DNA from: Bacteroidetes bacterium SB0662_bin_6
Lineage (GTDB): Bacteria > Bacteroidota > Rhodothermia > Rhodothermales > VXPQ01
Assembly (NCBI GenBank): GCA_009839485.1
Contig: VXPQ01000047.1
Coordinates: 17,696-81,695 of the forward strand
Length of the DNA stretch: 64,000 nucleotides
Direction: 5' to 3'
Shown here: one piece after another, positions 3,609 through 28,395 of the stretch
Position numbering within the stretch: position 1 is the stretch's first letter
Layout: each line of letters starts with the position of its first letter
Program-made: the position numbers and the translations under genes
Notes under the pieces: model-generated
Seen by the model: only the letters and a program-made list of their open reading frames with translations
The model's database searches: none
What the model was told of the DNA's origin: nothing

Positions 3609-3613
3609 GTATC

Positions 3614-4285: not shown

Positions 4286-4317
4286 GTGCGAACCGGGCGC
4301 CGGTTCGTCTCGCGAGC

Positions 4318-4659
4318 ATGAAAGGGCATCATATCACTCCACGAAAAACGCTGTTGAAGGTATTCGTCGCCCTGGTGGCGCTGACTGCTCTGACGGCCCT
4401 CACGGCGCAAATCGATATAGGGGCGTTCAACATACCGCTGGCCCTGGCGATCGCCGGGACCAAGGCCCTGCTCGTGGTGCTTTTCTTCATGGCCCTCAAG
4501 TACGACAAACCGGTCAATGCGCTGTTTTTCGGGCTGGGGATTCTTTTCGTGGTCGTATTCCTCACATTTACCTTGTTCGACACCGCCTTCCGGGGCGATC
4601 TCGGCAATGTAGGGGAGGAAGCGATTTTGAACACGGAGGGGACGGAACAGGGCGAGTGA
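4318..4659 (+). CDS. ctaF: Cytochrome c oxidase subunit IV (prokaryotic type)
   Basis: Small accessory subunit of about 113 residues with three hydrophobic segments (about 15-35, 43-60, 65-88) and an acidic tail. The sequence 'KALLVVLFFMALKYD' in the middle helix matches the prokaryotic subunit IV family (COX4_pro). ATG at 4318 follows the ctaE stop by 32 bases; the frame is open far upstream but those residues are an out-of-frame reading of ctaE. It closes the first oxidase operon and runs tail-to-tail toward the gene at 4703. Confidence 0.85.
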   Translation: MKGHHITPRKTLLKVFVALVALTALTALTAQIDIGAFNIPLALAIAGTKALLVVLFFMALKYDKPVNALFFGLGILFVVVFLTFTLFDTAFRGDLGNVGEEAILNTEGTEQGE

Positions 4660-6643: not shown

Positions 6644-6783
6644 GTGGATGCCGTGAGGTTGGAAAGGAATGCATAATGTTGCATCAATATCGCAAAATCC
6701 CGTCGAAATTTTTGCACTCTCGCCGCCGGTTACGTATTCTTTTCCCGCGAAACATCCTTTTACCACGAAGACCAGGGACGCGG

Positions 6784-8529
6784 ATGAAACTGCTTGCGAG
6801 GAGATTGCCCTCCGGGGTTCTCCTGTTTTTGATGCTTGCGGGTATAGCTTTTGTTGCGTTCTGGACGCCCGAAGCGTGGGCTCAGGAAGCCGCCGGGCAA
6901 GTCGAGTATCGCACCTTTCCCGTCGTAGGAAGCCGCGTGATAGTTTGGGTGATCGCCCAGTTGCACCTCATGTTCGGGGCGTTCGTGCTCGCCGTCCCGA
7001 TGTTCGCGCTTACGATCGAGTTCATCGGCTTCCGCAACGGCGACAAGCGCTACGACGATCTGGCGTATGAATTCACGCGCCTTTTGTCCGTCTCTTTTTC
7101 CTTTACGGCCAGTCTCGGCGCGCTTCTGACCTTTTTCCTGTTCATTCTGTATCCGCGGTTGATGGAGTATCTGGTCTCCATCTTCAGCTGGACATTCATG
7201 CTGTACGCAGCCGTCTTCTTCCTCGAAGCCGTCTTCCTGTACAGTTATTATTACGGATGGGGCAAGATGCCGAAGTGGTTGCATCTTGTCATCGGTCTTT
7301 GTCTGAACCTGGTAGGCATCGCCATCATTTTCATTGCCGACTCCTGGCTTACCTTCATGAATTCTCCCAACGGCATCGACGTCGAAGGGAATCTGCTCAG
7401 CACCTGGGACGCCATCAACAACTTCACATGGATGCCCATCAACATCCACCGGCTCATTGCGAATATCTGCTTCGGCGGGTCGATTGCGGCGGCGTACGGG
7501 GCCTACAAGTTTCTTGGCGCGAAGACCGACGAAGAGCGGGCGCACTACGACTGGATGGGCTACATGGGCAATTTCATTGCGATCGCCGCGCTGCTCCCGC
7601 TGCCGTTCGCGGGCTACTGGCTGGGCCGTGAAATCTACGCCTTTTCCCAGAGCCTTGGTATTGCGCTCATGGGCGGCACGTTCTCCTGGTTGTTCATCAT
7701 TCAGGCTGTGCTTATCGGCAACCTGTTTCTTGCAGCCAACTATTACCTGTGGTTGAGCATGGAGCGTATTCACGGGGCGGAGCGCTACCGCAAGTTCATC
7801 AAATGGTTGCTTGCTTCCATTACCGTCTGTTTCATCGTATGGGCGACGCCGCACTCCCTGGTCGCCACAGTCGAGGAAGCCCGCGCCATGGGCGGTTCCC
7901 ATCACCCGATTCTGAATGTGCTGGGCGTGATGTCGGCCAAAAACACCGCCGTCAACGTGCTCATTCTCACCACGTACCTGAGCTTCCTGTTTTACCGGCG
8001 GGCCAACAAGGAGGCGACCGTTTCGTGGGCGAAAACCGGCAATATCGTGCAGTTCGGCATCCTGGCGGTGGTCGTGGGTGTCGTCATTTTCCTCGGGGTG
8101 TACGGCTACTTCGTAGAGGCGTCCGTGCGGATCGGTTTGTCGATCCCGCAGGTGAGTCTCGTGCTCTTCGCCATGATTTCGATCACGATTATCGACGTCT
8201 TCATGTTCAGGAAGGCGAAGATTCTGGGACCGATCGAGTGGGGCAAGATTCCCAACCGGGCGCAGTACGCGCTCTTTTTCATTGCCATCACGTTTGCGTG
8301 GACGATGGGACTTATGGGCTACGTCCGCTCGGGTATTCGCCAGCACTGGCACGTCTATGGGGTTATGCGCGACACATCGGTGGATGCGTTTACACCCACG
8401 CTTGGCTACGCCGCCAATGTGGTGTCTGTGACGGTGCTGATTTTCTTTGCGTTTATCGCGGTCGTGTTTTTCCTTTCCAGTCTTGCGGGTAAGAAAAAAC
8501 TCGATGCCGGGGAGGGCACATCGTCATGA
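6784..8529 (+). CDS. CydA-like cytochrome bd-family oxidase subunit, no CydB partner
   Basis: Polytopic membrane protein (581 residues, N-terminal signal-like segment) of the cytochrome bd subunit I superfamily. A His in the first core helix ('AQLHLMFG') corresponds to the heme ligand His19 of E. coli CydA, 'FFLEAVFLYSYYYGW' matches the 'FFLEATFVGLFFFGW' helix (Glu107), and the His in 'INIHRLIAN' matches His186. The quinol-oxidase 'GRQPW' motif and the long Q-loop are absent, and the position of E. coli Glu99 appears to be Leu. No CydB follows; instead three cytochrome c genes are translationally coupled downstream. This suggests a CydA-like oxidoreductase fed by cytochrome c rather than quinol. 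Substrate (oxygen or another small molecule) cannot be told from sequence. Confidence 0.8.
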   Translation: MKLLARRLPSGVLLFLMLAGIAFVAFWTPEAWAQEAAGQVEYRTFPVVGSRVIVWVIAQLHLMFGAFVLAVPMFALTIEFIGFRNGDKRYDDLAYEFTRLLSVSFSFTASLGALLTFFLFILYPRLMEYLVSIFSWTFMLYAAVFFLEAVFLYSYYYGWGKMPKWLHLVIGLCLNLVGIAIIFIADSWLTFMNSPNGIDVEGNLLSTWDAINNFTWMPINIHRLIANICFGGSIAAAYGAYKFLGAKTDEERAHYDWMGYMGNFIAIAALLPLPFAGYWLGREIYAFSQSLGIALMGGTFSWLFIIQAVLIGNLFLAANYYLWLSMERIHGAERYRKFIKWLLASITVCFIVWATPHSLVATVEEARAMGGSHHPILNVLGVMSAKNTAVNVLILTTYLSFLFYRRANKEATVSWAKTGNIVQFGILAVVVGVVIFLGVYGYFVEASVRIGLSIPQVSLVLFAMISITIIDVFMFRKAKILGPIEWGKIPNRAQYALFFIAITFAWTMGLMGYVRSGIRQHWHVYGVMRDTSVDAFTPTLGYAANVVSVTVLIFFAFIAVVFFLSSLAGKKKLDAGEGTSS

Positions 8530-9350
8530 TGAACGCTGTCAAGATATGTGTCTTCACCGTCCTCGTGGCCGCATTCTATAGCTACGTTAGTCAGATGGTG
8601 CCGCAGACGGTGACGTATCCGCCCGAGGATACGGAACTCGGAGCCGACATGACCACGGAGGATCTGGTAGCTGCCGGCGAAGAAATCGCTTCGGGCAAGG
8701 GAACGTGTCTTACGTGTCATACCGTATCCGGGGAAACCGGGGGGCGTTTCCCCGATCTGGCGAACATTGGCCTGATTGCCGCGGAGCGCAAGGAAGGTTT
8801 AAGCGACGTGGAGTATCTGGCCGAGTCGCTCTACGAACCGAATGAATACATTGTCGAGGGCTTTTTGCCCGGCATGACTCCTATTTCCGACCCGCCCATC
8901 GATCTGAACGACCAGGAGATTCTTGCGGTGATTGCGTACCTCCAGAGTCTTGGCGGCGCCGCCACGGTTACGCTGGACACGGAGTTGCGCTGGCAGAGCG
9001 AAGAGAATGCCGCCGGTGCATCGACTGCTTCGCAAGCAAGTGCGTCTGCTGCGCCCTCTTCGGAAAACCTCTCCGGGGAAGAGTTATTCACCATGTACGC
9101 CTGTGGCGTCTGTCACAGCCTCACCGATCCCACACCCTTGCTGGGTCCCAGTTTGTACGATGTGGGAAACAATCTATCGACCGCCGAGATCTACGAGGCG
9201 ATCATGGATCCGGACGCCGTGCTGAATGAGGCATATCCGGCGGGTTTGATGACGGCGCAACTGAACGCTGTCGGATTCTACGACAAGATATCGTCCGGGC
9301 AGCTCAAAACGCTGGTTGATTACCTGGCGTCACAAAAGGGAGGATCATGA
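8526..9350 (+). CDS. Membrane-anchored diheme cytochrome c
   Basis: Exported cytochrome of 274 residues with one N-terminal anchor (about 5-22) and two cytochrome c domains: CLTCH near residue 61 and CGVCH near residue 195. Distal Met candidates occur in 'LPGMTP' and 'PAGLMTAQ'. The two domains are joined by a low-complexity Ala/Ser linker (about 160-178). Its ATG overlaps the stop of the CydA-like gene (ATGA), with a GGGGAGGG-like ribosome site just upstream, so the two are translated together and the protein is likely the direct electron donor or a subunit of that complex. Confidence 0.88.
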   Translation: MMNAVKICVFTVLVAAFYSYVSQMVPQTVTYPPEDTELGADMTTEDLVAAGEEIASGKGTCLTCHTVSGETGGRFPDLANIGLIAAERKEGLSDVEYLAESLYEPNEYIVEGFLPGMTPISDPPIDLNDQEILAVIAYLQSLGGAATVTLDTELRWQSEENAAGASTASQASASAAPSSENLSGEELFTMYACGVCHSLTDPTPLLGPSLYDVGNNLSTAEIYEAIMDPDAVLNEAYPAGLMTAQLNAVGFYDKISSGQLKTLVDYLASQKGGS

Positions 9351-10177
9351 ATATCATTATCCTGCTTGTGGTGTGTGCAGGGCTTGTAGCGCTGCGCTTC
9401 GTGCCGAAGATAAATATCCTCGGCTGGCTGGCGGGGTGGTTGATCGCTGCATTCGTTTTTCTGCGCTGGGGCATCGATCCGCCGCTGCCTACCTCGATCC
9501 AGGGGATGTTCATTGCCATCCTCACGCTTGCGTTGCTGGCGTATTTATCGGCGGATTCGTCACATTTCCGGTTTGTGCTGGACCGGTTCGTGGCATTCAC
9601 GACCCAGAGAAAGTATACGATTCCGCTGTTGGCGGTCATTGTGCTGTTGCCTTGTCTTGCGGCGCTCCGCGTGTATTTCGACGTGACGGAAGGACCGGCG
9701 CCTCCTCTCAGAAGCCGCACGATTCACCCGCCGCCGCCTGTGAGTATCGAAGTGGCCGGCAATACGATCGACCTTGTCAACGACGACAACCCGTACCGCG
9801 CTCTTGAAACGGAAGACCCGGCGGCGTTCGAGGAGCATGTGGAAAACGGGCGCCGCGTGTACTACGAAAACTGTGTGTACTGCCACGGGGACGATATGGC
9901 GGGAGACGGCCTTTTTGCCCATGGGTTCGACCCCATTCCCGCGAATTTCCAGGACGCCACGACCATCGCCATGCTTCAGGAAGGCTACATTTTCTGGCGC
10001 ATCGCCAAGGGCGGCCCGGGGCTGCCGAGCGAATCCACGCCCTGGCTTTCGGCCATGCCTGCCTGGGAAGACTTCCTCTCCGAAGAGGATATGTGGGATG
10101 TGACGCTTTTCCTGTACGATTTCACCGGACACCGGCCGCGGGCGCGGGAGGATCATGGTGGAGGCGGGGACCATTAG
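9347..10177 (+). CDS. Membrane protein with C-terminal monoheme cytochrome c domain
   Basis: About 276 residues. The first 105 residues carry three to four hydrophobic helices, followed by a periplasmic cytochrome c domain with CVYCHG (about residue 180) and a distal Met in 'SAMPAW'. It resembles the cytochrome c subunits that pair with membrane oxidoreductases and may anchor the electron-transfer chain between the neighbouring diheme cytochrome and the next gene. ATG overlaps the previous stop (ATGA) and is preceded by a GGGAGG ribosome site. The next gene starts inside its 3' end (23-base overlap). Confidence 0.85.
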   Translation: MNIIILLVVCAGLVALRFVPKINILGWLAGWLIAAFVFLRWGIDPPLPTSIQGMFIAILTLALLAYLSADSSHFRFVLDRFVAFTTQRKYTIPLLAVIVLLPCLAALRVYFDVTEGPAPPLRSRTIHPPPPVSIEVAGNTIDLVNDDNPYRALETEDPAAFEEHVENGRRVYYENCVYCHGDDMAGDGLFAHGFDPIPANFQDATTIAMLQEGYIFWRIAKGGPGLPSESTPWLSAMPAWEDFLSEEDMWDVTLFLYDFTGHRPRAREDHGGGGDH

Positions 10178-11771
10178 GAATAAAACCGACATAGCGATTC
10201 GTTCGTCTGCTTGCCGGGCAGGACGCGCCGTTGTGCGTTTTTCCCGATCGAGCCTCATATCATGCGTTCTGGGGGTGTGTTTGCCTGTCGTATTGCTTCC
10301 CCTGATCGTCTCGGCGCAACCCGCGCCGGACCTTGGCACCGACGAACAGCGCGAGGCCGGCCGCCTGCTGTACATGGATAAATGTGCGCAGTGCCATGGA
10401 GACACCGGTCAAGGGGATGGCGTGGCGGCGCCCTTCATGCGCCCGATGCCCCGCGACTTTACGGCAGGTATCTACAAGGTACGCACCACGCCGAGCGGAC
10501 AGTTGCCTACGGATGACGACATCGCGCGGGTGATTCGCGACGGCATGCCTTATACCGGTATGCCCCCCTGGCCGCAGTTGAGCGATGATGAAATTCGCAA
10601 CCTTGTCTACTACCTGAAAACTTTCAACGACGATTTCTCCGGACCCTACGGCGTTCCCGATGTAATCGAGATTCCTGATCCTCCATCGTTCAGCGAATCG
10701 TCTGCCGAACGGGGGCGCGTGGTCTACGAAGAGAACCAGTGTTTCGATTGCCATGGCATGGCCGCGCGCGGCGACGGGCCTTCCGCTGTGACATTGCAAG
10801 AGCAGTGGGGCAATCATATCCGCCCTGCCGACCTTACGAAGCGCTGGACCTTCATAGGGGGCAACACGCGCGAGGACATCTATCGCACGTTCACCACCGG
10901 CCTCGACGGTTCGCCCATGCCGTCCTACAGCATTACCCCGATCGAAGACAGCTGGGCCCTTGTCGATTACGTCTATTCGCTGTCGCAGGACGACCCGGAC
11001 TATGCGATCTCCGCGACCGCGCAGTATGCGAACGATCCCGTCGACCCGGTGCAGGGAAAGGCGGCTTTCGGCGAGGAACGCGGCGCCTATTTCCCCGTGG
11101 TCGGACAGGTCATTGAACCCGGAAGATCATTTATGCCCGGCGTAGACGGCATCGAGGTGAAAGCGCGCTACAATGCGGATGAGATCGCCATTCTTCTTTC
11201 ATGGCACGACATGTCCGCAGAGACAATGGGGAGCAATGCCCCGGACATGGAGGTTCCCCTTACGGAGCAGGTCGTTCGGGATACCGTGACAAGCATCTGG
11301 TCCGATGCGGTCGCCATACAGTTTCCTCAGGAACTTGTACCGGAAGGCCTGCCCTACTTCCTGTTCGGGGACGCAAGACAACCGGTCGATCTGTGGTTCG
11401 CCGATCTGGCTTCGGGAGAAGGCCGTTCGTACATCGGACGCGGGAGTGGTAACCTGCTCGCCGGCGAAACCTCCCCGTCCGTTCATGCGACCTACGAGGA
11501 CGGTGCATGGACCGCCGTCTTCACCATGCCGCGCGACGGGCGTTTTGCGGAAGACACCTTCGTTCCGATCGCTTTCTCGGTGTGGGACGGTTTCAACGAC
11601 GAGCGGGGTAATCGCCGGGGTCTCACGGGATGGTATTATCTCTATCTCGAGCCCTCCGAGCGTCCGTCGCCCGTGATGCCCATGCTGCGCGCCGCCGGGC
11701 TCACGCTTCTCGTGTTGCTGAGCATCGTCGGACTGGTGCGTTTCCGGCATCGTGCCTCCGTTACCGCCTGA
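10155..11771 (+). CDS. Diheme cytochrome c fused to an ethylbenzene dehydrogenase-type heme domain
   Basis: Exported, membrane-anchored protein of 538 residues. After an N-terminal hydrophobic segment (about 34-54) come two cytochrome c domains with CAQCHG (about 77) and CFDCHG (about 196). From about 280 to 510 the sequence matches the EB_dh heme-binding fold of gamma subunits from ethylbenzene dehydrogenase, selenate/chlorate reductase and nitrite oxidoreductase ('VKARYNADEIAILLSWHD', 'WSDAVAIQFP', 'LTGWYYLYLEP'). A C-terminal membrane helix (about 512-530) ends in a short basic tail. No molybdenum catalytic subunit is nearby, so here the domain probably serves the CydA-like complex. Three hemes are expected in one polypeptide. 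Confidence 0.85.
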   Translation: MVEAGTIRNKTDIAIRSSACRAGRAVVRFSRSSLISCVLGVCLPVVLLPLIVSAQPAPDLGTDEQREAGRLLYMDKCAQCHGDTGQGDGVAAPFMRPMPRDFTAGIYKVRTTPSGQLPTDDDIARVIRDGMPYTGMPPWPQLSDDEIRNLVYYLKTFNDDFSGPYGVPDVIEIPDPPSFSESSAERGRVVYEENQCFDCHGMAARGDGPSAVTLQEQWGNHIRPADLTKRWTFIGGNTREDIYRTFTTGLDGSPMPSYSITPIEDSWALVDYVYSLSQDDPDYAISATAQYANDPVDPVQGKAAFGEERGAYFPVVGQVIEPGRSFMPGVDGIEVKARYNADEIAILLSWHDMSAETMGSNAPDMEVPLTEQVVRDTVTSIWSDAVAIQFPQELVPEGLPYFLFGDARQPVDLWFADLASGEGRSYIGRGSGNLLAGETSPSVHATYEDGAWTAVFTMPRDGRFAEDTFVPIAFSVWDGFNDERGNRRGLTGWYYLYLEPSERPSPVMPMLRAAGLTLLVLLSIVGLVRFRHRASVTA

Positions 11772-11798: not shown

Positions 11799-13103
11799 AT
11801 GGAAGCCGCCCGTTCCCTGTCCTTTCTGTCTTCCCCCGGGGGGTATCGCCCCTCGCTCGTTTCCTGGAATCTGACCCGGAAATGCAATCTCAAGTGCCCC
11901 CATTGCTATATGGAAGGGGGTACCGCCGAAGAAAACGAATTGACTACGGAAGAATGTCTCGCGCTGCTCGACGAGATGGAGGCGCTCGGCACGGAGATGC
12001 TCATTCTTACCGGTGGAGAGCCGCTCTTGCGCCGTGATATCTACGAGATTGCGCAGACGGCCTCTGCAAAGGGAATGTGGGTGGTAATGGGTACAAATGG
12101 GGTCATGGTCAATGATTTCGTTGCCCGCAAGATGGTGGAATGCGGCGTCAAGGGGGTGGGCATCAGCATTGATTCCATTGATCCTGAGAAGCACAATGCC
12201 TTTCGCGGTGGACCGAATGCCTGGGAGCATTCGGTTCGCGCCCTCGAGATTTGCCGCCGGCATGGCCTCGAAGTGCTTGTGCAAACGACCGTTATGGACA
12301 TGAACCGGGATGAAATTCCGGAACTCATGGCGTTTGCACGGGAGAAAGGCGCCTGGTCCTTTAACCTGTATTTTCTGGTGCAGACGGGCCGGGGACAGGA
12401 AATGAACGATCTTCCCGCCGCCGCCACGGATACGATGCTTCGGGAAATGGTGAAGGTGCAGGACGAGTACCGTCCTATGCTGGTCCGGTCGAAATGTGCA
12501 CCGCAGTTCAAACAGATCGCGTATGACGAGGGCCTTGGCGGTCTGGAAAGCGGGGGATGCATGGCGGGTACGCAGTACTGCCGCATTACGCCGGGCGGGG
12601 ATGTCACGCCGTGCCCGTACATGACGGTGGTAGCCGGAAATGTCCGCGAACAGTCTTTCGCCGAGATATGGACTTCTTCTCCCGTGCTGACGGATTTACG
12701 CGATCCTTCCCGGCTCAAGGGCAAATGCGGCGCATGCGAATTCAACGAACTCTGCGGCGGATGCCGCTGCCGCGCCCAGGCCGCTTTTGAAGACTATCTC
12801 GCCGAAGATCCGGCCTGCCTTTATCAGCCGACCGGCAGGACCCTCGAACGATACGATATAGAGTGGTCTCCCGAAGCACAGCGGCGACTTGATCGCATAC
12901 CGATCTCTTTCATCCGTGAAAAGGTTCGCAAGGGTCTCGAAACCTATGCGGACCGACACGGCGTGCGCCGCATCTCCGCAGGCCTCATGCAGGAGGCCCT
13001 TGCAGGCATGGATCGCTCGGCGCCGTCCTTTTCGGCGGCCTCTGCGAAACCGCCGGACTCCGGGGTTATTAAAGAACCCGTTACTCCGGAACGACTTGTA
13101 TAA
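11799..13103 (+). CDS. SPASM radical SAM protein (NirJ/AhbD-like) with C-terminal PCP_red domain
   Basis: Cytosolic radical SAM enzyme of 434 residues. The CNLKCPHC motif (CX3CX2C) near residue 28 binds the SAM cluster and 'LTGGEPLLR' is the SAM-binding GGE segment. The C-terminal Cys-rich part ('GGCMAGTQYC', 'CPYM', 'CGACEFNELCGGCRCRA') is SPASM/twitch-like, as in the heme-modifying enzymes NirJ and AhbD and in peptide-modifying enzymes. After about residue 352 a helical segment beginning 'IEWSPEAQRRLDRIP' matches the PCP_red domain found at the end of light-independent protochlorophyllide reductase BchB. I infer a tetrapyrrole-directed role because of that domain and the cytochrome neighbours, but a peptide substrate is not excluded. 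Lies 27 bases after the cytochrome gene. Confidence 0.82.
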   Translation: MEAARSLSFLSSPGGYRPSLVSWNLTRKCNLKCPHCYMEGGTAEENELTTEECLALLDEMEALGTEMLILTGGEPLLRRDIYEIAQTASAKGMWVVMGTNGVMVNDFVARKMVECGVKGVGISIDSIDPEKHNAFRGGPNAWEHSVRALEICRRHGLEVLVQTTVMDMNRDEIPELMAFAREKGAWSFNLYFLVQTGRGQEMNDLPAAATDTMLREMVKVQDEYRPMLVRSKCAPQFKQIAYDEGLGGLESGGCMAGTQYCRITPGGDVTPCPYMTVVAGNVREQSFAEIWTSSPVLTDLRDPSRLKGKCGACEFNELCGGCRCRAQAAFEDYLAEDPACLYQPTGRTLERYDIEWSPEAQRRLDRIPISFIREKVRKGLETYADRHGVRRISAGLMQEALAGMDRSAPSFSAASAKPPDSGVIKEPVTPERLV

Positions 13104-13135: not shown

Positions 13136-13930
13136 ATGGAAAAGCTTGACGCAAAAACGCTCACGGAGCAGGTGCAGGTAATCAACGGGGTCGCCCGTCT
13201 CAAAAAGAACGGCGCCGACCAGAACCTTGATGTCATTGAGCTCCCGGAGAAATTCATCCGGTGGCAGCTCGACTACAAGCACAGCATTTACGACGCCATC
13301 GAGCAGGATCAGTACATCGCGTTCAACGCGGGGCATCTGCCTGTTGTGGCCACATGGGCTGACGATGCGCTCGTTCCCAATCTGGCCAACAAGGGCGTAG
13401 GGTTCACCCCTAAGGATGAATATATCGACTATTATCTCGAACTGGTGGAGGATGCCGTCGCTCAGATCCAGGAATTGCCGCCCCATGCCGTCAACGAGAC
13501 GCGCGATCTGCGCATCCGCACGGCCCGCGAGTTGTATTCCCATCCCGAACATATCGACTGGCGGCGCGTCGGGCTCCTCGAGATTTTCGAGGGATCCACG
13601 CTCAAAAATCTTGTCGAAAACCCCTTTGCATCCGTGCTGTGGACCGGCAACTCCCCGGTATTCGTCAGTTTTCAGGCGGACTGTGTGGTGGAAATCATCG
13701 AGCCGGAGGACAAGCGGTATCGTTTCCCCTGGGCGATGCGCCGCCTGTTCGAATACGAACCGTTCCACGTGGTCCAGACCATTTACCCCTATTCGTACTG
13801 CTTCTGGATCTATCGCTGGAAGGACAAGACGCCCAAGCGCCGTTATCCCGGCAAGCGGAGCGACAACACCGTCAACGAGGCGGGCGGCGTGATCGACAAA
13901 CAGGCCTTCAACGGACAAGGGCGCGCATAG
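13136..13930 (+). CDS. Conserved-looking hypothetical protein in the PCP_red cluster
   Basis: A 264-residue soluble protein without signal peptide or membrane helix. I do not recognise a family. It is rich in aromatic residues, with a Trp/Tyr/Phe-dense C-terminal third ('YPYSYCFWIYRW') followed by a basic stretch. Only two Cys are visible (in 'ADCVVEI' and 'SYCFWIY'), so it is unlikely to hold an Fe-S cluster by itself. It sits between the radical SAM gene and the ferredoxin, in the same direction and about 30-50 bases from each, so it probably works with them. Confidence 0.7.
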   Translation: MEKLDAKTLTEQVQVINGVARLKKNGADQNLDVIELPEKFIRWQLDYKHSIYDAIEQDQYIAFNAGHLPVVATWADDALVPNLANKGVGFTPKDEYIDYYLELVEDAVAQIQELPPHAVNETRDLRIRTARELYSHPEHIDWRRVGLLEIFEGSTLKNLVENPFASVLWTGNSPVFVSFQADCVVEIIEPEDKRYRFPWAMRRLFEYEPFHVVQTIYPYSYCFWIYRWKDKTPKRRYPGKRSDNTVNEAGGVIDKQAFNGQGRA

Positions 13931-13982: not shown

Positions 13983-14198
13983 ATGCCTCACATGATCACA
14001 GATGCCTGTGCGCAATGCGGCCTGTGCGTGGATGTGTGCCCGATCGGTGCGATTTCACCCGGAGATCCAATCTACGTCATCAACGATACCTGTTGCGATT
14101 TTATGGAATGTGTCGTCGAGTGTCCCGAGGAAGCCATTGTCCCGATCCCGGATTGGGAGGAACCCGTCGCCGTGTCCGATAGGGAGGTGGCGTCATGA
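13983..14198 (+). CDS. Two-cluster ferredoxin with altered second motif
   Basis: A 71-residue ferredoxin. The first motif is canonical (C9, C12, C15, C19 in 'CAQCGLCVDVCP'). The second is unusual: Cys residues are at 37, 38, 43 and 47 ('CCDFMECVVECP'), so the second Cys is adjacent to the first rather than three residues on. It probably still binds two 4Fe-4S clusters and could give electrons to the radical SAM enzyme upstream. The stop overlaps the start of the next gene (ATGA), which is preceded by a strong GGGAGG site. Confidence 0.88.
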   Translation: MPHMITDACAQCGLCVDVCPIGAISPGDPIYVINDTCCDFMECVVECPEEAIVPIPDWEEPVAVSDREVAS

Positions 14199-14791
14199 CC
14201 GGATCGCTGGTAACCCGTTTTGTACTGGAGGATTTTTTGGCTGCAGCAGCCCACAGCTATGCTGCTTCGGTCCCTGAGCAGGGACGTGCCGGGCGGCTGT
14301 TTCTGCTTGGAGAGACCTCACAAGTTCTGGAGGGATGGCGGTCATGGACGGATGCGGTGCGCCTGTATGCCGATGTGGAATACCGGCCCGAATGGGATGC
14401 GGCCGCGGCGCGCACCGCTGCACAGTTCGGCGTGGCGGTCGAGCAGGAATTTCCGGGGGATCTGATTCCTTTGCCAGCCGGCTTCGAACAACGACATCGG
14501 TCTGTCCGGGACTTGTCGGACTCCGGATTGAGTTTGTGGCATTTCGATCCGTACTCGGTGGCGTTTCGGCACGTGGCCCGCGGCGACGAGCCGGATTACC
14601 ACATTGTGCTGGCCTATGTGAAATATGGCTGGATCGGGAAGGAAGAAATGGAGGAGCGCCTTGAGGCGCTCCTGCCCGAATTTTCCATGGAAACGATTGC
14701 GCAGGACCCGGCGGAGTTTCGCCGTAAGTACAAGGGGCTGCTTCAAATGGGAGAGCGTCTCGAACCCGGCACGGTACACCGTCCTTTCTGA
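14195..14791 (+). CDS. Nucleotidyltransferase-fold-like protein (DUF6036-type), active site degenerate
   Basis: A 198-residue soluble protein. The pattern 'RLFLLGETSQVLEGWR' followed by a strand, then 'DLIPLPAGFEQRHR', 'LWHFDPYSVAFRHVARG' and a helical end resembles DUF6036-type nucleotidyltransferase-like proteins, where the first motif is GG-S/T and a DxD follows. Here the GG is GE and no DxD is visible ('TDAVRLYADV'), so catalytic activity is doubtful. Start overlaps the ferredoxin stop, indicating coupling. Family assignment rests on remembered patterns and is tentative. Confidence 0.6.
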   Translation: MTGSLVTRFVLEDFLAAAAHSYAASVPEQGRAGRLFLLGETSQVLEGWRSWTDAVRLYADVEYRPEWDAAAARTAAQFGVAVEQEFPGDLIPLPAGFEQRHRSVRDLSDSGLSLWHFDPYSVAFRHVARGDEPDYHIVLAYVKYGWIGKEEMEERLEALLPEFSMETIAQDPAEFRRKYKGLLQMGERLEPGTVHRPF

Positions 14792-14805: not shown

Positions 14806-15210
14806 ATGGAGGCATCCCGGGACATAGCACCGACTGATGCACTCGAAGCGCGTGCTGCCGAATTGGCCGCAAGGCGCCTTGACTGGAACGAGCTGGATTT
14901 TGTAGGCTGGAAGGAATTCCGCCGTATGGCGCCGGCCATTGTACGCATGGAAACGGGGCGGCTGGAGCGGATCATGGAAGAGACCGGACCGGGCAGCGAT
15001 GCGTACAACGCGATGGTGCGGGTGCGTTTCGAGATGAATGCGTTCGCCGAGGGAATGGAGCAGGCGGAACGCGCATCCCTCGCGGGTCGTGCTGACCATC
15101 TCCAGCGCGCCCTGCTTGCCGTTTCGCTCCTTGCAGAAGATTCCGAAACGCTGCGCTATGTGATGTACCGCCTTACCTACATTTACGACCGCCTCAAACT
15201 GATCTATTAG
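14806..15210 (+). CDS. Small helical hypothetical protein
   Basis: A 134-residue predominantly alpha-helical, charged protein of unknown family, without signal peptide, membrane helix or Cys. It contains two long amphipathic stretches (about 35-75 and 82-130) that could form a helical bundle. It lies 14 bases after the nucleotidyltransferase-like gene and 5 bases before the stress-protein fusion, so it belongs to the same operon. No specific function can be inferred. Confidence 0.65.
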   Translation: MEASRDIAPTDALEARAAELAARRLDWNELDFVGWKEFRRMAPAIVRMETGRLERIMEETGPGSDAYNAMVRVRFEMNAFAEGMEQAERASLAGRADHLQRALLAVSLLAEDSETLRYVMYRLTYIYDRLKLIY

Positions 15211-15215
15211 CCGTT

Positions 15216-17150
15216 ATGTACAAGACCATATTCGTTCCGGTCGATAATTCGGATCATTCGATGGCAAGCATCGACGTTGCCGTCGAACTGGCGAAGCGGT
15301 TCGATTCGGAGCTCGTGGGCAGCCATGCCTACGCAGCCCGTATGCACGATTACCGCTTCAAGCAGATGGAGTTTACGCTGCCCGAGGAATATCTCGTCGA
15401 AGAGGAAATGGAGAAGCAGCGGAAGGTGCACGACACGCTCATCACGATGGGTCTCGAACTGATTTCGGATTCGTACCTGACCGTGATGGACAAGCGGTGC
15501 CGCGAGGAAAAATTGCCCTTCCAGCCGAAGATGTATGACGGGAAGAACTGGAAGATTATCGTGCAGGATATCGAGGAGAGCGACTACGACCTGGTCGTGA
15601 TGGGGGCGCTCGGCCTCGGCGCTGTTCGTGACAGCGTGCTGGGCAGCGTATGCTCGCGGGTTGTCCGGCGGGCGCGTACCGACATGTTCATTGTCAAGGA
15701 TACCGATTCATTTGAGCGCCAGATGAACGGGCATGCCGTGGGCGAGGCCGACGGCGGCCATATCGTCGTGGGTATCGATGGCAGTCCCGAATCCTTCGCC
15801 GGCCTGAAAACGGCGCTCGAACTGGGCCGGAAGCTGGACAAGCGCGTGGAGGCGGTGTCGGTTTACGATCCCTATCTGCATTACGCGATGTTCAACAGCA
15901 TCGTGAATGTGCTTACCGAAAAGGCCTCGAAAGTATTCCGGTTCAAGGAGCAGGAGCAACTCCACGAAGAGGTCATCGACACGGGGCTTGCGAAGATATA
16001 CCAGTCGCATCTCGAAGTGGCGCATCGCATTGCCGCCGAAGAGGGCGTGGATCTCAAGATTACGCTGCTCGATGGCAAGGCCTTCGACAAGATTCTTCAG
16101 TATATGCGGCGCGAGAAGCCTTGGTTGCTGGTCCTGGGCCGTATCGGAGTGCATAGCGATGAGGACATGGACATCGGCAGCAACACCGAAAACCTGCTGC
16201 GAATGGCTTCCTGCAATGTGTTGTTGTCAAGCAGGCGGTATACCCCCCCGCTTGATGTGCAGGCCGAGGAATCCATGATCTGGACGGACGAGGCCACGGC
16301 GCTCGTCAATACGGCGCCCGACTTTGCCCGCAACATTGCGCGTACGACGATCCATCGATGGGCCATGGAGCGTGGCCACTCCGTGATTACGCTAAAGGTG
16401 GTCGAACAGGCCATGGCGACCATTCTCCCTGAATCCGCCATGCGGTCCATGGGCATCATTGCCGAAACCGTGGCCCGCGACAAAATCGCCGCGGTCGATG
16501 AAGTGACGTACGTATGCAGCCGGTGCGGCTACGCGGCGCGCGGATTCAAGCCCGCCGTGTGTGCTGTCTGCGGAGCTGCCCCCGAGCAGTTCCAGGAAAT
16601 CGACAAGGAGGCGCTTCGCAAACTGGCGCCGCTCGAAGGCGCCGTTGAAGAGGTTGAAACCTTCGACAAGAAGAAGATCAAGTGGACTCGGGATGCGCGC
16701 GAACTGCTCAGGAAGGTTCCTGACGGATACCAGATGCGCCGCGCCCGCGCGCAGATCGAAAAGAGCGCCCGGGTCAAGGGGCTCGATACGATCACCCGCG
16801 ACATGGTGGCCGAGGCAGTCAGCGATTTGCTCGAAGACACTTCCGTGCTTTCTGCGCCCGGTTCCGGGTTGAAGGAAAATCCGGCAGGGCAGGCTCCGGC
16901 CCGGGAAGCCGTTTCCGTCGAATTGATCGACAAGGGAGCGTACAAGTGGACACCGGAGGCCTGGGCTCGCCTCGAACGGGTGCCCGAAGGCTTCATGCGC
17001 GACAAGGCGAAAGAGCGGATGGAAGCGGCCGCAGACGGGCGTAACGCCACGATCATTACGATGGAGATTGTCGAAGAAGGCCTTGAGGTGTCCCGGAAAG
17101 CCATGGAAGAGGCCATTCGCAAGCAGCAGGAGGAAAAGGCCGCGTCGTGA
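15216..17150 (+). CDS. Tandem UspA - PCP_red - rubredoxin-like - PCP_red - PCP_red fusion protein
   Basis: A 644-residue soluble protein with an unusual architecture. Residues 1-165 and about 180-345 are two universal stress protein domains; both keep a glycine-rich nucleotide-binding pattern ('GALGLG..DSVLGS' and 'GRIGVHSDEDMDIGS'). A PCP_red-like helical domain at about 353-402 ('IWTDEATALVNTAP') is followed by a rubredoxin-like knuckle at about 431-460 with CSRCG and CAVCG. Two further PCP_red domains start near 488 ('IKWTRDARELLRKVP') and 576 ('YKWTPEAWARLERVP'). PCP_red is known from protochlorophyllide reductase and binds near tetrapyrrole; three copies joined to ATP-binding and metal-binding modules suggest a scaffold or chaperone for a tetrapyrrole or metal cofactor. 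Role is inferred only. Confidence 0.82.
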   Translation: MYKTIFVPVDNSDHSMASIDVAVELAKRFDSELVGSHAYAARMHDYRFKQMEFTLPEEYLVEEEMEKQRKVHDTLITMGLELISDSYLTVMDKRCREEKLPFQPKMYDGKNWKIIVQDIEESDYDLVVMGALGLGAVRDSVLGSVCSRVVRRARTDMFIVKDTDSFERQMNGHAVGEADGGHIVVGIDGSPESFAGLKTALELGRKLDKRVEAVSVYDPYLHYAMFNSIVNVLTEKASKVFRFKEQEQLHEEVIDTGLAKIYQSHLEVAHRIAAEEGVDLKITLLDGKAFDKILQYMRREKPWLLVLGRIGVHSDEDMDIGSNTENLLRMASCNVLLSSRRYTPPLDVQAEESMIWTDEATALVNTAPDFARNIARTTIHRWAMERGHSVITLKVVEQAMATILPESAMRSMGIIAETVARDKIAAVDEVTYVCSRCGYAARGFKPAVCAVCGAAPEQFQEIDKEALRKLAPLEGAVEEVETFDKKKIKWTRDARELLRKVPDGYQMRRARAQIEKSARVKGLDTITRDMVAEAVSDLLEDTSVLSAPGSGLKENPAGQAPAREAVSVELIDKGAYKWTPEAWARLERVPEGFMRDKAKERMEAAADGRNATIITMEIVEEGLEVSRKAMEEAIRKQQEEKAAS

Positions 17151-17171: not shown

Positions 17172-18065
17172 ATGAAAACCTGGCATGATATAGCAACCGA
17201 TGGGGGTTCCGATGTGGCGGGCCAGGTGGCGGTGCAGGCTGACCGGCTTGCGGAACGTCTCAGCGACATTCGCCATATCGTCGCGGTAATGAGTGGTAAG
17301 GGAGGGGTTGGAAAGAGCACTGTGGCGGTGAATCTTGCAGCGGCGCTGGCTCGCAATGGCGCGCGCATCGGTCTCGTGGATGGAGATATCAATGGCCCGT
17401 CGCTCGGGCGGATGACCGGTGTGCAGGCTGTGGGCCTGTCGCAGCGCACAAAAGGGACCGTTTCCCCTCCCGAAACAACCCTGGGCGTGCAGGTCATGTC
17501 CATGGCTCTGTTTTTGCACGACGAAACGACGCCCGTAGCGTGGGACGCTCCCTCGCAATCCGGCGGAGCCGCCTGGCGCGGGCTCCGTGAGGCAGGCGCC
17601 CTGCGGGAGCTCATTACCGATACCGCATGGGGCGCGCTCGATATGCTCCTTGTCGATCTGCCGCCGGGATCGGATCGCCTGCCAACCCTTGTTGATGTCA
17701 CCCCGCGCATTGATGCGGTCGTCGTAGTTACTATTCCTTCGGTGGTGGCTCTGGATGCGGTGGGGCGCTCCGTGCGTATGATCCGGGAACACCTCGATGT
17801 GTCGTCGCTGGGGCTTGTCGAAAACATGGCGTCGCACACTTGTCCGCATTGCGGACAGGCGGATCCGCTGTATTCGCCGGGCCGTACGGACCGGTTGGCC
17901 GAGGCCCTCGATGTGCCTGTGCTGGCTCGTATCCCCTTTGATCCTGCGCTCGGCATGGCTGCCGACGAAGGCCATTCATACCTGTGCGCACATCCGGATC
18001 GCCCGGCGGCGCGCGCCTTCACTGAACTGGCCGATCGCCTTCAACTTCTTCTCGATGCCTCATGA
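17172..18065 (+). CDS. Mrp/ApbC-family P-loop ATPase
   Basis: A 297-residue MinD/Mrp-type ATPase, usually an iron-sulfur cluster carrier. The deviant Walker A 'GKGGVGKST' is at about residue 41, the A' element is 'VDGDINGPS', and 'LLVDLPPGSD' is Walker B. Near the C-terminus 'CPHCG' supplies the CxxC that bridges a cluster at the dimer interface. 'PPGS' rather than the usual 'PPGT' is a small change. It probably loads clusters onto the ferredoxin or radical SAM protein of this cluster. Its stop overlaps the next start (ATGA). Confidence 0.9.
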   Translation: MKTWHDIATDGGSDVAGQVAVQADRLAERLSDIRHIVAVMSGKGGVGKSTVAVNLAAALARNGARIGLVDGDINGPSLGRMTGVQAVGLSQRTKGTVSPPETTLGVQVMSMALFLHDETTPVAWDAPSQSGGAAWRGLREAGALRELITDTAWGALDMLLVDLPPGSDRLPTLVDVTPRIDAVVVVTIPSVVALDAVGRSVRMIREHLDVSSLGLVENMASHTCPHCGQADPLYSPGRTDRLAEALDVPVLARIPFDPALGMAADEGHSYLCAHPDRPAARAFTELADRLQLLLDAS

Positions 18066-18541
18066 AATTTCTTTGTGTGGAATGTGACGAGGCCATGAGC
18101 CTCGCTGAAACGCGTGGGCCTGACCGCGGCTCCATGACGGTTGTATTCGGTTGCCCTGCATGCGGCAGGCAAACCGCCATGCTGACCAATTCGAGCGAGA
18201 CGCAGGTGGTACGCTCTCTTGGCGTGAAGATCGGCGGACAATCTGTACCTGCCGAGCCTATGGAAGGTATACGGGCCGGGCTGGCTGCCTCGTCGGTCGG
18301 GGTTTCCGATCCTGCTGCGGGCGGCGGCGCTTCGAAGTGCCCCTTTACGGGTATGGTCAACGAGGCTTTCGGGCGCAGTGACATGCCCTGGACGGACGGC
18401 GCGCGCCAGCGCATGGAGAATATTCCCGCTTCCGCCCGCGGCATGGTTATGCAGAGTGTGGAGCGCTATGCCGAAGCCGAGGGACTCGCCGAGGTGACCG
18501 AGGCCGTCCTGGACCGTGCGCGCAGCGGCATGGGCATGTAA
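18062..18541 (+). CDS. Zinc-ribbon plus PCP_red domain protein
   Basis: A 159-residue protein with an N-terminal metal-binding ribbon (CVEC at about 5-8 and CPAC at about 30-33), a Gly/Ala-rich linker, and a C-terminal PCP_red-like domain starting at 'MPWTDGARQRMENIP' near residue 108. The same helical domain is found in the radical SAM protein and in triplicate in the stress-protein fusion, which ties these genes together. Translationally coupled to the Mrp ATPase gene. I do not know a named family for the full protein. Confidence 0.75.
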   Translation: MKFLCVECDEAMSLAETRGPDRGSMTVVFGCPACGRQTAMLTNSSETQVVRSLGVKIGGQSVPAEPMEGIRAGLAASSVGVSDPAAGGGASKCPFTGMVNEAFGRSDMPWTDGARQRMENIPASARGMVMQSVERYAEAEGLAEVTEAVLDRARSGMGM

Positions 18542-18547: not shown

Positions 18548-19000
18548 ATGTTCACCTTTCGCGCCGTCGTTCTATGGATTCACCTGGCGGCGATCATCGT
18601 CTGGGTGGGCGGGATGATCGTCGTACCGTTTGTGGCGATGCCGGCCGTGCGTCGGTTTGCGGGCGAACACCTTGCCCCTGAACGCGCCGCTGCGCTTATC
18701 GAGACGCTGGTGCGCCGGTTTCAGCGGTTCAGCAGGGAGCTTTTCTTCACGATCCTGCTGACAGGGATTTTCAATCTCATCAATGCGGGGTGGCTGACGA
18801 ACTTCAGCTACCCGTCCGCCTATCTCCAACTGGTCGGCGCCAAATTCATCCTGTTCCTTACGATGGGCGTCAATCAGGCATGGTACAGTCTGAAGCTTGT
18901 GCCTCAAGGGAAAACGCGGACTGCCCTGTGGTCTGCGCTTGTCAATGCCCTGCTTGCTGCGGTCGTGCTGTACCTGGGGTTGAAGTTGCGGTTCGGATAG
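18548..19000 (+). CDS. Four-helix membrane protein, CopD-like
   Basis: A 150-residue integral membrane protein with four hydrophobic segments (about 5-28, 57-77, 90-110, 127-146). The opening 'VVLWIHLAAIIVWVGGMI' with His on the first helix and a 'VGAKFILFLTMG' third helix resemble CopD/HemJ-like heme or copper membrane proteins. It lies 7 bases after the ribbon/PCP_red gene and ends the cluster. A role in heme or copper handling for the CydA-like complex is an inference. Confidence 0.65.
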   Translation: MFTFRAVVLWIHLAAIIVWVGGMIVVPFVAMPAVRRFAGEHLAPERAAALIETLVRRFQRFSRELFFTILLTGIFNLINAGWLTNFSYPSAYLQLVGAKFILFLTMGVNQAWYSLKLVPQGKTRTALWSALVNALLAAVVLYLGLKLRFG

Positions 19001-25006: not shown

Positions 25007-26785
25007 ATGGCTGATCACGCAGCCGTCCCGGAAGGCCACCACGGGGAAGACGTTCACCACGACTCCTTCTGGAGGAAATACATTTTCTCGACCGACCACA
25101 AGGTCATCGGGATTCAGTACGGCATTACGGCGCTTCTTTTTCTGCTGTTCGGGTTCTCGCTCGTGATGCTCATGCGGTGGCAACTCGCCTATCCCGGAGA
25201 ACCTGTCCCGCTCATCGGCTGGCTTTTCACCGACGACACGATGCCCGGGGGGGTGATGCTCCCCGAATTCTACAACCAATTGGGCGCCATGCACGGCACC
25301 ATTATGGTGTTTCTCGGTATCGTGCCGCTGGCGGTGGGGGCGTTCGGCAACTACATTGTTCCGCTGCAGATCGGTGCGCCGGACATGGCGTTCCCGAAAC
25401 TCAACATGGCCAGCTACTGGGCCTTTTTCGTGGGCGGCGTGATCATGCTGGGCAGTTTCTTTGTGCCCGCCGGCGCCGCCAAGGCCGGCTGGACCTCGTA
25501 TGCCCCCTTGTCTGTCATCGAGTCGATGGGGCAGACGATGTGGCTTCTCGGCATGGTTTTTCTCATCACGTCGTCTCTGCTGGGCGCCGTCAATTTTCTG
25601 ACGACCATCGTGCAGCTTCGGGCCGAGGGGATGACCTTCATGCGGATGCCCTTCTTCGTGTGGGCGCAGTTTATCACGTCTTTTCTGTTGCTGCTGGCGT
25701 TTCCTCCCCTGGAGGCTGCTTCCTTTCTGATGCTGGCCGACCGCTTGCTCGACACCAGTTTCTTTATGCCGTCGGGGCTTGTCGTCAGCGGCGAGGTGGT
25801 CGATGTGGCGGGCGGAGGAAGCCCATTGCTCTGGCAGCATCTGTTCTGGTTCCTGGCTCACCCGGAGGTGTATGTGCTGGTGCTGCCGGCCATGGGGATC
25901 GTCGCGGAGATTATCGCCAACAACTCGCGAAGGCCGCTACGGGGATTCAAGGCGATGGTGTACTCCCTGATTTTCCTTGGCTTCATGTCGTTCATCGTCT
26001 GGGCGCATCACATGTTCATTACCGGAATGGGGCAGGTGATGAGCGTGTTTTTCCAGACCACCACGATGATCATTTCGATCCCGTCGGTGATTATTCTTAC
26101 GGCGCTTGTCTTGTCGCTGTGGGGCGGTTCCATCCGGTTTACGACACCCATGCTCTTTGCACTGGGCTTTCTGCCCATGTTCGGCATCGGCGGGCTTACG
26201 GGGTTGCCGCTGGGACTGGCGGCCACCGATATTCCTCTGCACGATACCTATTACGTGATAGGGCACTTTCATTATGTGGTGGCGCCGGGCACTATTCTCG
26301 CGCTCATGGCCGGCATTTATTACTGGTTCCCGAAGATGACCGGGCGGACCCTGAACGACACGCTCGGCAAGATTCACTTCTGGGGCACGATCGTCAGCAT
26401 GAATTTCATCTTCTTTCCCATGCTTATCCAGGGGTTAGCCGGCGTTTCGAGGCGGTTGTACGACGGAGGAGAGATTTACGCCCATGCACAGGATGTGATC
26501 GTCTACAACGAAGTGATGTCGATCGCCTCATGGGTGCTGTTCGTTTTCCAGATTCCGTTTATCGTGAATCTTCTTATCAGCCTGAAGAAGGGGAAAGCTG
26601 CCACAGACAACCACTGGGACGCCACGACCATCGAATGGTCGGCGGCCCCGTCTCCACCTGTCGGGCACGGCAACTTCCACGATTTGCCGCAGGTGTACCG
26701 GGATCCGTACGAATACAGTCACCCGGACCATGACGAAGATTACTGGCCGCAAAATGCTCCGCCTGCCGAGGCATCGGAAGATTAA
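25007..26785 (+). CDS. ctaD: Cytochrome c oxidase subunit I, A1-type
   Basis: Catalytic subunit of a second aa3-type oxidase, 592 residues with 12 membrane helices. CuB and heme ligands are seen in 'FLAHPEVYVLVLP', 'VWAHHMF' and 'HDTYYVIGHFHY'. The HPEVY motif keeps the Glu that marks the A1 subtype, unlike the Tyr-Ser version in the operon at 1863. A long His- and Asp/Glu-rich N-terminal extension precedes 'YIFSTDHKVIG'. Subunits III, IV and II follow, an order (I-III-IV-...-II) different from the first operon (II-I-III-IV). Confidence 0.95.
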   Translation: MADHAAVPEGHHGEDVHHDSFWRKYIFSTDHKVIGIQYGITALLFLLFGFSLVMLMRWQLAYPGEPVPLIGWLFTDDTMPGGVMLPEFYNQLGAMHGTIMVFLGIVPLAVGAFGNYIVPLQIGAPDMAFPKLNMASYWAFFVGGVIMLGSFFVPAGAAKAGWTSYAPLSVIESMGQTMWLLGMVFLITSSLLGAVNFLTTIVQLRAEGMTFMRMPFFVWAQFITSFLLLLAFPPLEAASFLMLADRLLDTSFFMPSGLVVSGEVVDVAGGGSPLLWQHLFWFLAHPEVYVLVLPAMGIVAEIIANNSRRPLRGFKAMVYSLIFLGFMSFIVWAHHMFITGMGQVMSVFFQTTTMIISIPSVIILTALVLSLWGGSIRFTTPMLFALGFLPMFGIGGLTGLPLGLAATDIPLHDTYYVIGHFHYVVAPGTILALMAGIYYWFPKMTGRTLNDTLGKIHFWGTIVSMNFIFFPMLIQGLAGVSRRLYDGGEIYAHAQDVIVYNEVMSIASWVLFVFQIPFIVNLLISLKKGKAATDNHWDATTIEWSAAPSPPVGHGNFHDLPQVYRDPYEYSHPDHDEDYWPQNAPPAEASED

Positions 26786-26841
26786 TGCGAGACCGGACTG
26801 CCTGCCGTATGTATGAAACCCGTTTGTGAACCCTGACCGCC

Positions 26842-27459
26842 ATGCAAATTCCATTCACCGTTGCGCCCCGGCCTGATACGGGCGTGAACAATGCAAAGAT
26901 CGGAGTGTGGCTTTTTCTCGCCTCCGAAGTCATGCTGTTCGGCGGGCTGTTCTCGGCATATATCTTCCTGCGCATCGGCGCGCCCGAATGGCCCGGCGAG
27001 ATCGGGGGACATATGTACGAACGGGCTTCGGACATTCTGAACGTTCCGCTGGCCACCCTCAATACGATCATACTTATCGGGTCGAGCGTCACGATGGTGA
27101 TGTCCTGGGCGTCCCTTGCGATGCAACGGTTCGACCGGTACCGGTTGTATATGGGCGCCACCATTGCGCTCGGCTTCGCCTTCCTGGTGGTAAAGGCTTT
27201 CGAGTACGGCGAAAAGTTCAGCCACGGGTACCTGCCCGCCGAGAACAATTTCCTTGCCATCTACTTCGTGCTGACCGGCCTGCACGGCCTCCACGTGATC
27301 GGCGGCATTATCGTCAACATGTACTTCATGTGGCCGGGCGCCCGCATGTGGAAGACGAACCCGAAACAATTTACGAACCGGATCGAGATCGCAGGACTTT
27401 ACTGGCACTTTGTCGATCTCGTGTGGATATTCCTCTTTCCGACGATTTATCTGCTTTAA
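26842..27459 (+). CDS. ctaE: Cytochrome c oxidase subunit III
   Basis: Membrane subunit of 205 residues with five hydrophobic helices. Family hallmarks are 'IGVWLFLASEVMLFGGLFSAY', 'KAFEYGEKF', 'LTGLHGLHVIGG' and the C-terminal 'YWHFVDLVWIFLFPTIYLL'. It is shorter at the N-terminus than its counterpart at 3614. Starts 56 bases after subunit I and belongs to the same operon. Confidence 0.94.
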   Translation: MQIPFTVAPRPDTGVNNAKIGVWLFLASEVMLFGGLFSAYIFLRIGAPEWPGEIGGHMYERASDILNVPLATLNTIILIGSSVTMVMSWASLAMQRFDRYRLYMGATIALGFAFLVVKAFEYGEKFSHGYLPAENNFLAIYFVLTGLHGLHVIGGIIVNMYFMWPGARMWKTNPKQFTNRIEIAGLYWHFVDLVWIFLFPTIYLL

Positions 27460-27498
27460 CACGCCAGGCGCGCAGGCCTGGCCAACGTACAGCGCATT

Positions 27499-27816
27499 AT
27501 GAGCGAGCATTCTGTTGAGGAAATAAAAAAGCATGTCCGCGTGTACATGCTTGTTTTTGGATCGCTGGCTGTCCTTACGGTGGTCACGGTAGTCGTGGGC
27601 TATCTTGAACTTCCCTTTGTGCCGGCGCTCATTGTCGCCTTGCTGATCGCGACCGTCAAGGCGGGGCTGGTGGCGGCCTATTTCATGCACCTCGTTTCGG
27701 AGGAGCAGGTTATCCGGTGGCTCGTCTGGTTGAGCCTCGCGTTATTGCTGGTTATGTTCCTTCTGTTCAGCGTGTATTACGTGGATCAGGGAGGCACGGA
27801 GATTTTCGGATTCTGA
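27499..27816 (+). CDS. ctaF: Cytochrome c oxidase subunit IV (prokaryotic type)
   Basis: A 105-residue protein with three membrane helices (about 17-38, 43-63, 75-94). The motif 'LLIATVKAGLVAAYFMHL' in the middle helix is the prokaryotic subunit IV signature. It lies between subunit III and two small membrane genes in the operon. The next ATG is 3 bases after its stop. Confidence 0.9.
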   Translation: MSEHSVEEIKKHVRVYMLVFGSLAVLTVVTVVVGYLELPFVPALIVALLIATVKAGLVAAYFMHLVSEEQVIRWLVWLSLALLLVMFLLFSVYYVDQGGTEIFGF

Positions 27817-27818
27817 CC

Positions 27819-28028
27819 ATGTCGTTGAAGGCCTTCCATATCGTGTTCATCGTGGCCTCTGCGCTGTTGTCCCTGGGCTTCGGGGTATGGGCGCTTACGG
27901 ACAATGGCGCGTTGTCGGCTGCGGCTGCGGGAGTTGCGTTTCTCGTGGGCGCCGCCCTGGTTGTCTACGGTGTGCGTTTTCTGAAGAAGGTGACGCGTAC
28001 GGGCTATATCGCCGGAGGAAAATTATGA
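27819..28028 (+). CDS. Small two-helix membrane protein of the oxidase operon
   Basis: A 69-residue protein with two hydrophobic segments (about 6-26 and 32-52) and a basic C-terminus. The ATG at 27819 comes right after the ctaF stop; an upstream in-frame extension would only overlap ctaF. Its stop overlaps the next start (ATGA at 28025). Unknown family; position suggests an assembly or accessory subunit of the A1 oxidase. Confidence 0.65.
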   Translation: MSLKAFHIVFIVASALLSLGFGVWALTDNGALSAAAAGVAFLVGAALVVYGVRFLKKVTRTGYIAGGKL

Positions 28029-28315: not shown

Positions 28316-28395
28316 GACTTCGCTCGATGTAACGATGCATATGACAGCGCACCGAATCATACCATGAATGTCCATCCATCCGCCCGGCAATTCAC

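Follow-up and report, generated by a model that had tools for sequence, protein, structure and literature searches.

In the available parts of their published descriptions, Nitrospira, Nitrospina and anammox bacteria carry a cluster of genes for a cytochrome bd-like protein, an alternative NxrC and two cytochromes c, and their bd-like protein resembles only the N-terminal half of CydA (PMC3578206; PMC6606698). PMC3578206 describes the cytochrome bd-like complexes that nitrifiers and anammox bacteria possess as enigmatic, and an OR-N group of Nitrospira-type bd-like proteins has been named in PMC12342949. A literature search on the assembly of these complexes found nothing.

Tandem Usp proteins of solved structure (UspE/YdaA, Rv2623 and TTHA0350) end after the second Usp domain, at 235-311 residues. 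The PCP_red domain (PF08369) is named after BchB, which acts on a porphyrin; our literature search found no paper on the domain, hence none that assigns a ligand to it, and no function of its own for the PCP_red domain at the end of BchB.

Here, we describe, by computational analysis throughout, a 64,000-nucleotide stretch of DNA (the window) in which the two themes meet. As in the Nitrospira, Nitrospina and anammox cluster, with the likeness judged from the available parts of the published descriptions, genes for a bd-like protein, a monoheme cytochrome c, a diheme cytochrome c and an NxrC-like diheme subunit are contiguous. The window differs in that a cassette of radical-SAM, PCP_red, Usp and Mrp genes lies alongside, partners that the same parts of those descriptions do not report for the bd-like clusters of nitrifiers (PMC3578206; PMC6606698). 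It also differs in that no NxrA-like molybdoenzyme was found in the genome (96% complete), where the one PF00384 match is short and covers 77 of 353 positions; participation of the cluster in nitrite oxidation was rejected on this ground.

Results

Between positions 6697 and 19000 of the window, the genes share a strand, are spaced by -23 to +52 bp and follow one another in this order:

6697..8529, + strand: cytochrome bd-like membrane protein (Pfam Cyt_bd_oxida_I, 2-239 of 418, 87.8 bits)
8526..9350, + strand: diheme c-type cytochrome (CLTCH, CGVCH)
9347..10177, + strand: membrane-anchored monoheme c-type cytochrome
10155..11771, + strand: diheme c-type protein with an ethylbenzene-dehydrogenase-gamma-like (EB_dh) domain and a C-terminal hydrophobic segment, 'alternative NxrC'-like (Pfam, two CxxCH)
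11799..13103, + strand: radical SAM/SPASM protein with a C-terminal PCP_red domain (Pfam), nearest to NirJ2/AhbD
13136..13930, + strand: orf264, conserved protein
13983..14198, + strand: dicluster-type ferredoxin, 71 aa (Pfam)
14195..14791, + strand: orf198, conserved protein
14806..15210, + strand: orf134, conserved small protein
15216..17150, + strand: fusion protein, Usp-Usp-PCP_red-rubredoxin-like-PCP_red-PCP_red, 644 aa (ORF, Pfam, 14 aligned full-length homologues)
17172..18065, + strand: ApbC/Mrp (NUBPL)-type ATPase (Pfam ParA/NUBPL, E = 1.9e-69)
18062..18541, + strand: Zn-ribbon protein with a C-terminal PCP_red domain (Pfam PCP_red, 44.9 bits) and an invariant CPF motif
18548..19000, + strand: small CopD-like membrane protein, last in the operon (CopD 28.7 bits, under the cut-off of 32.1)

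The true start of the bd-like protein is probably internal to its frame. Its likeness to CydA is confined to the N-terminal half (Pfam), and its conserved His and Glu residues align with, or adjoin, those of canonical CydA. In the EB_dh protein, the diheme part is strongly similar to chain B of PDB 6H5L, a 'conserved hypothetical cytochrome protein' (E = 2.3e-51) of Kuenenia, an anammox bacterium. On either side of the operon is a set of heme-copper oxidase genes (window positions 144-4659 and 25007-29163), and a gene of the NrfD family, as found in alternative complex III, is located outside the window, some 3.4-4.4 kb upstream (G000:C47:13306-14268). Among the 80 genomes of the order tested, Cytochrome_B is missing from 76 and an NrfD-family protein is present in all 80, so the bd-like cluster is not needed as the sole substitute for complex III, and this explanation was set aside.

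The partner genes point to heme-type and Fe-S chemistry by family. The best NCBIfam matches of the radical-SAM protein are two heme-pathway enzymes, NirJ2 at 351 bits and the heme b synthase AhbD at 305 bits, with which it shares the radical SAM and SPASM domains; it differs from both in its PCP_red tail and in scores under the equivalog cut-off of 500. The ferredoxin, which at 71 aa falls below the 80-aa limit of the ORF lists, was found in nearly all relatives. Its second motif is one Cys short (C-x-D-F-x2-C-x3-C), and the second cluster may therefore be a [3Fe-4S] cluster or have a non-Cys ligand. In the Mrp-type ATPase, the Walker A and CxxC motifs are invariant in the alignment. The CPF motif of the Zn-ribbon protein, mostly KCPFTG, precedes its PCP_red domain and resembles a heme regulatory (CP) motif. 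Three proteins, orf264, orf198 and orf134, have no Pfam family over cut-off; orf134 adjoins the fusion gene on its upstream side in the relatives examined, while orf264, missing from the operons of several relatives, and orf198 are optional. The CopD-like gene adjoins the operon in some but not all relatives.

The gene at 15216..17150 had been singled out by an initial annotation, made from sequence alone, as joining two nucleotide-binding Usp domains, three PCP_red-like domains and a rubredoxin-like knuckle in one chain. The reading frame, Pfam and AlphaFold2/Foldseek bear out this order, and all 15 aligned full-length sequences (the window protein and 14 others 65-99% identical to it) have the same architecture:

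15216..15698, + strand: Usp domain 1, aa 1-161 (Pfam 77.6 bits; G-x2-G-x9-GS at aa 130-144; helical insert at aa 38-90)
15756..16229, + strand: Usp domain 2, aa 181-338 (Pfam 65.5 bits; G-x2-G-x9-GS at aa 308-322; helical insert at aa 212-272)
16281..16415, + strand: PCP_red 1, aa ~356-400 (Pfam 44.6 bits)
16503..16601, + strand: rubredoxin-like/Zn-ribbon knuckle, aa ~430-462, CxxC-x11-CxxC spanning aa 434-452 (Pfam 25.4 bits, cut-off 26.5)
16683..16817, + strand: PCP_red 2, aa ~490-534 (Pfam 38.3 bits)
16947..17078, + strand: PCP_red 3, aa 578-621 (Pfam 44.7 bits)

With the whole protein as query, Usp (E = 4.2e-39, two stretches) and PCP_red (E = 1.6e-29, three stretches) scored over cut-off, and the separate segments did so as well (cut-offs of 24 bits for Usp, PF00582, and 32.5 bits for PCP_red, under which some segments of distant relatives fall). 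No nitrogenase-like (Oxidored_nitro) catalytic region was detected in the fusion protein by Pfam. The AlphaFold2 model of the full-length protein (mean pLDDT 69) matched tandem Usp structures in Foldseek, with clear matches for the Usp part only; large transporter matches of this model were disregarded (rmsd 10-19 A). Confidence in the models is moderate because homologues of the fusion are few and similar to one another. A model of the C-terminal part (mean pLDDT 71.5) places helices at the PCP_red helix positions and matches two NMR structures with probability 1.00, namely 2L09 (rmsd 1.4 A) and, from BchB, the PCP_red structure 2KRU (rmsd 2.3 A), so that the segments are PCP_red-like and not unrelated helices. 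A profile of 13 sequences matched 2L09 (E = 2.9e-5) and the ChlB chain 2XDQ_B (E = 0.0043) at PCP_red 3, and it also matched 2KRU. HMM, profile and fold thus agree that the domain is that of BchB/ChlB; the fusion differs from BchB/ChlB in having three copies in one protein and no nitrogenase-like catalytic part. Foldseek also gave a weak similarity to the C-terminal helical domains of AAA+ proteins.

The Usp part resembles the tandem Usp proteins UspE/YdaA, Rv2623 and TTHA0350 in its two domains with an ATP-type motif (Foldseek E of 1e-12 to 1e-8), and differs from these in a long, highly conserved helical insert in each domain and in a C-terminal arm of about 300 aa. Both domains keep the nucleotide-binding signature G-x2-G-x9-G-[S/T] unbroken in 15 of 15 sequences. 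By HMM and motif the domains are of the ATP-binding type, and on family grounds they would be expected to bind nucleotide; their nearest Usp sequences among PDB entries are those of Rv1636 and of MSMEG_3811, whose structure was solved with cAMP. Conservation in the fusion peaks in the helical inserts as well as in the nucleotide motifs. Invariant positions in the 15 sequences make up 75% of insert 38-90, compared with 52% of Usp domain 1 as a whole, and 74% of insert 212-272, compared with 64% of Usp domain 2. Such strong conservation suggests that the inserts form a specific binding face.

The rubredoxin-like assignment of the knuckle held up in part. Its four cysteines (434, 437, 449 and 452) are invariant in the 15 full-length sequences, the 13-sequence profile matched Pyrococcus furiosus rubrerythrin at this segment (E = 6e-6), and Foldseek on the C-terminal model likewise returned rubrerythrins (probability 0.97). 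The score against RUBY_RBDX (PF21349), on the other hand, was 25.4 bits for the segment alone and 20.3 bits (E = 3.7e-4) within the whole protein, both under the cut-off. Metal binding is likely by family resemblance, and the sequence would fit iron, as in rubredoxin, or zinc alike.

What the initial annotation had not described is that two further PCP_red proteins are encoded together with the fusion in a single operon. The genome of the window has five PCP_red domains, one on the radical-SAM/SPASM protein, three on the fusion and one on the Zn-ribbon protein, and a PF08369 search of the genome found none outside the operon. Five is the usual count in other carriers; some have fewer, and one genome (G452) has an additional match under the cut-off. 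In a tree of PCP_red domains, the copies form clades by position, with support of 1.0 for the first and 0.97 for the second copy of the fusion and weak support for the third copy and for the radical-SAM and Zn-ribbon copies; the copies therefore probably specialised before the lineages split. An alignment of all copies shows a Glu that most of them share; in PCP_red 1, the residue at this position is an invariant His380.

Fusions of a HemG-like flavodoxin (Flavodoxin_5) with PCP_red were also seen at three loci (L128:3355-4002, L129:3576-4199 and L130:3852-4481). Their genomes carry BchB-type PCP_red proteins as well and are called Chlorobi-like for that reason; we found no description of this flavodoxin architecture.

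The fusion was found in 27 of 114 genomes of the same order, with membership taken from kinship classes and near-identical named MAGs, and in 15 of 49 genera; homologues are mostly 63-99% identical. Among 296 sampled genomes of the phylum, 8 had the fusion, every one from this order; the collection-wide scan used exact peptide patterns, which distant fusions in other phyla would escape. Over the 114 order genomes, PF08369 matched in the same 27. A bd-like protein of at least 71% identity is present in 28 of the 114, namely the 27 fusion carriers and one 74%-complete genome (Fisher p about 2.5e-25, phylogeny ignored). Relatives keep the order bd-like, cytochromes, EB_dh, radical SAM, ferredoxin, orf134, fusion, Mrp and Zn-ribbon-PCP_red, with protein identities of roughly 45-75% for most genes and lower for orf134. 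One genus (g9) and several families (f4, f5, f8 and f52) include genomes with and genomes without the gene set, which has therefore been gained or lost together, more than once; the fusion and the bd-like gene behave as a unit in this respect.

The relatives that carry a name are MAGs, all assigned to Rhodothermales/Rhodothermaceae except for one 'uncultured Bacteroidetes' and one Marinimicrobia MAG. The Marinimicrobia contig (L018:1-10598) contains part of the fusion operon with a short remnant of orf198; neither a bd-like gene nor a ferredoxin match was found on its 10.6 kb, and the fusion was found in none of 148 further Marinimicrobia genomes. This copy may reflect horizontal transfer or a mis-binned contig. 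In one relative, the EB_dh and radical-SAM genes are separated by a TnpB/OrfB-like transposon ORF, identified by eye (L022:14633-15805). The only relatives on plasmids were archaeal tandem Usp proteins (23-25% identity) and ordinary radical SAM proteins.

Discussion

The fusion is conserved and travels with the bd-like gene cluster, and it is therefore probably a dedicated assembly or cofactor-handling factor for the complex that this cluster encodes. As a more definite proposal, which we put forward tentatively, it could be a cytosolic assembly factor dedicated to the bd-like/c-type cytochrome complex, acting as a nucleotide-gated scaffold or carrier in the maturation of its cofactors. The two Usp domains would bind ATP, or another adenine nucleotide, and so set the state of the protein, with their conserved helical inserts as a docking face, while the C-terminal arm would carry the Cys4 metal site and the three PCP_red modules. 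The fusion would work with the NirJ2/AhbD-related radical-SAM/SPASM-PCP_red protein and with the Zn-ribbon-PCP_red protein; the ferredoxin is a likely electron donor and the ApbC/Mrp-type ATPase a likely Fe-S carrier, and heme-type chemistry would fall to the radical-SAM protein, roles suggested by the families of these partners. Together they would prepare or deliver a cofactor for the bd-like complex, with a modified heme or an Fe-S cluster as the likeliest candidates, and PCP_red would be the module that the pathway's proteins have in common for docking or for holding a tetrapyrrole.

The conserved operon order, the co-inheritance, the presence of five PCP_red domains in the operon, the intact Usp motifs, the nearness of the radical-SAM partner to NirJ2 and AhbD, and the ferredoxin and Mrp-type ATPase genes argue for the assembly role. 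So does the occurrence of PCP_red elsewhere as an appendage of redox enzymes (BchB, HemG-like flavodoxin). With BchB, the HemG-like flavodoxin, the AhbD-like radical-SAM protein, the Zn-ribbon/CPF protein and the Usp fusion as hosts, the most economical reading of what they share is that PCP_red serves redox and cofactor pathways as a module for docking or for holding a tetrapyrrole; binding of a tetrapyrrole is suggested by the company that the domain keeps, and its name should not be read as a function. Against the assembly role are the scores of the radical-SAM protein below the AhbD and NirJ2 cut-offs and the Marinimicrobia contig, which has the fusion and no bd-like gene. The nitrifier bd-like clusters, for which no such partners are reported in the available parts of their descriptions, also count against it, and the cassette is perhaps not required by all bd-like complexes (PMC3578206; PMC6606698).

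The main rivals of the assembly-factor reading are a regulator and a pure docking protein. As a regulator or sensor, the tandem Usp part would read ATP (or cAMP) and the Cys4 site redox state or metal, and the arm would respond to energy or oxygen by switching how active or how abundant the complex is. The nucleotide motifs, intact throughout, and the proximity of Rv1636 and cAMP-bound MSMEG_3811 are consistent with such a sensor, as are the heme-copper oxidase gene sets on either side of the cluster and the Usp genes of Nitrospira marina, which adjoin operons that rise under low oxygen (PMC8115632). We nevertheless regard a regulator as unlikely, as it leaves unexplained both the recurrence of PCP_red on the radical-SAM and Zn-ribbon proteins and the locking of the gene into a maturation-like gene set.

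That recurrence speaks for a pure docking function. The fusion, with its threefold PCP_red, would then be a multivalent scaffold for the radical-SAM, Zn-ribbon and Mrp proteins and would bind no tetrapyrrole; the position-specific clades, with their probable early specialisation, and the weak similarity to AAA+ helical domains fit this as well. However, the partners resemble heme and Fe-S enzymes and BchB acts on a porphyrin, and we consider docking alone improbable too. The co-occurrence of a ferredoxin, a P-loop ATPase and PCP_red lends a superficial likeness to a DPOR-like reductase formed by the fusion, the Mrp ATPase and the ferredoxin. This reading was rejected as extremely improbable, since the nitrogenase-like catalytic domain was found by Pfam in none of the scanned operon proteins, and the Mrp protein is of the ApbC/NUBPL type, with BchL as a weak match (26.5 bits, compared with 345).

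The initial annotation had proposed an energy-sensing scaffold or a cofactor chaperone. That proposal fits all of the findings, with the ATP-site motifs and the knuckle intact in the aligned relatives, and is partly supported overall; in the light of the operon, a role in the cofactors or the assembly of a bd-like respiratory complex becomes both more specific and more likely. The assembly-factor reading can be extended, although we think the extension quite doubtful, to one in which PCP_red serves generally as a module that holds tetrapyrroles or docks within a pathway, the operon makes a modified heme and installs it in bd-like complexes, and the Usp fusion is the ATP-gated carrier that hands the cofactor over.

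Our literature search found no published description of a Usp-PCP_red fusion architecture; the combination is new, and its component domains were already known. If the modified-heme reading is true, the operon would be a new kind of heme-maturation system. The five PCP_red domains, gathered in one operon of heme and Fe-S flavour and absent elsewhere in the genome, make the role of the domain directly testable with small proteins, and the cassette, inherited with the bd-like complex, supplies named genes with which the assembly of that complex can be tested.
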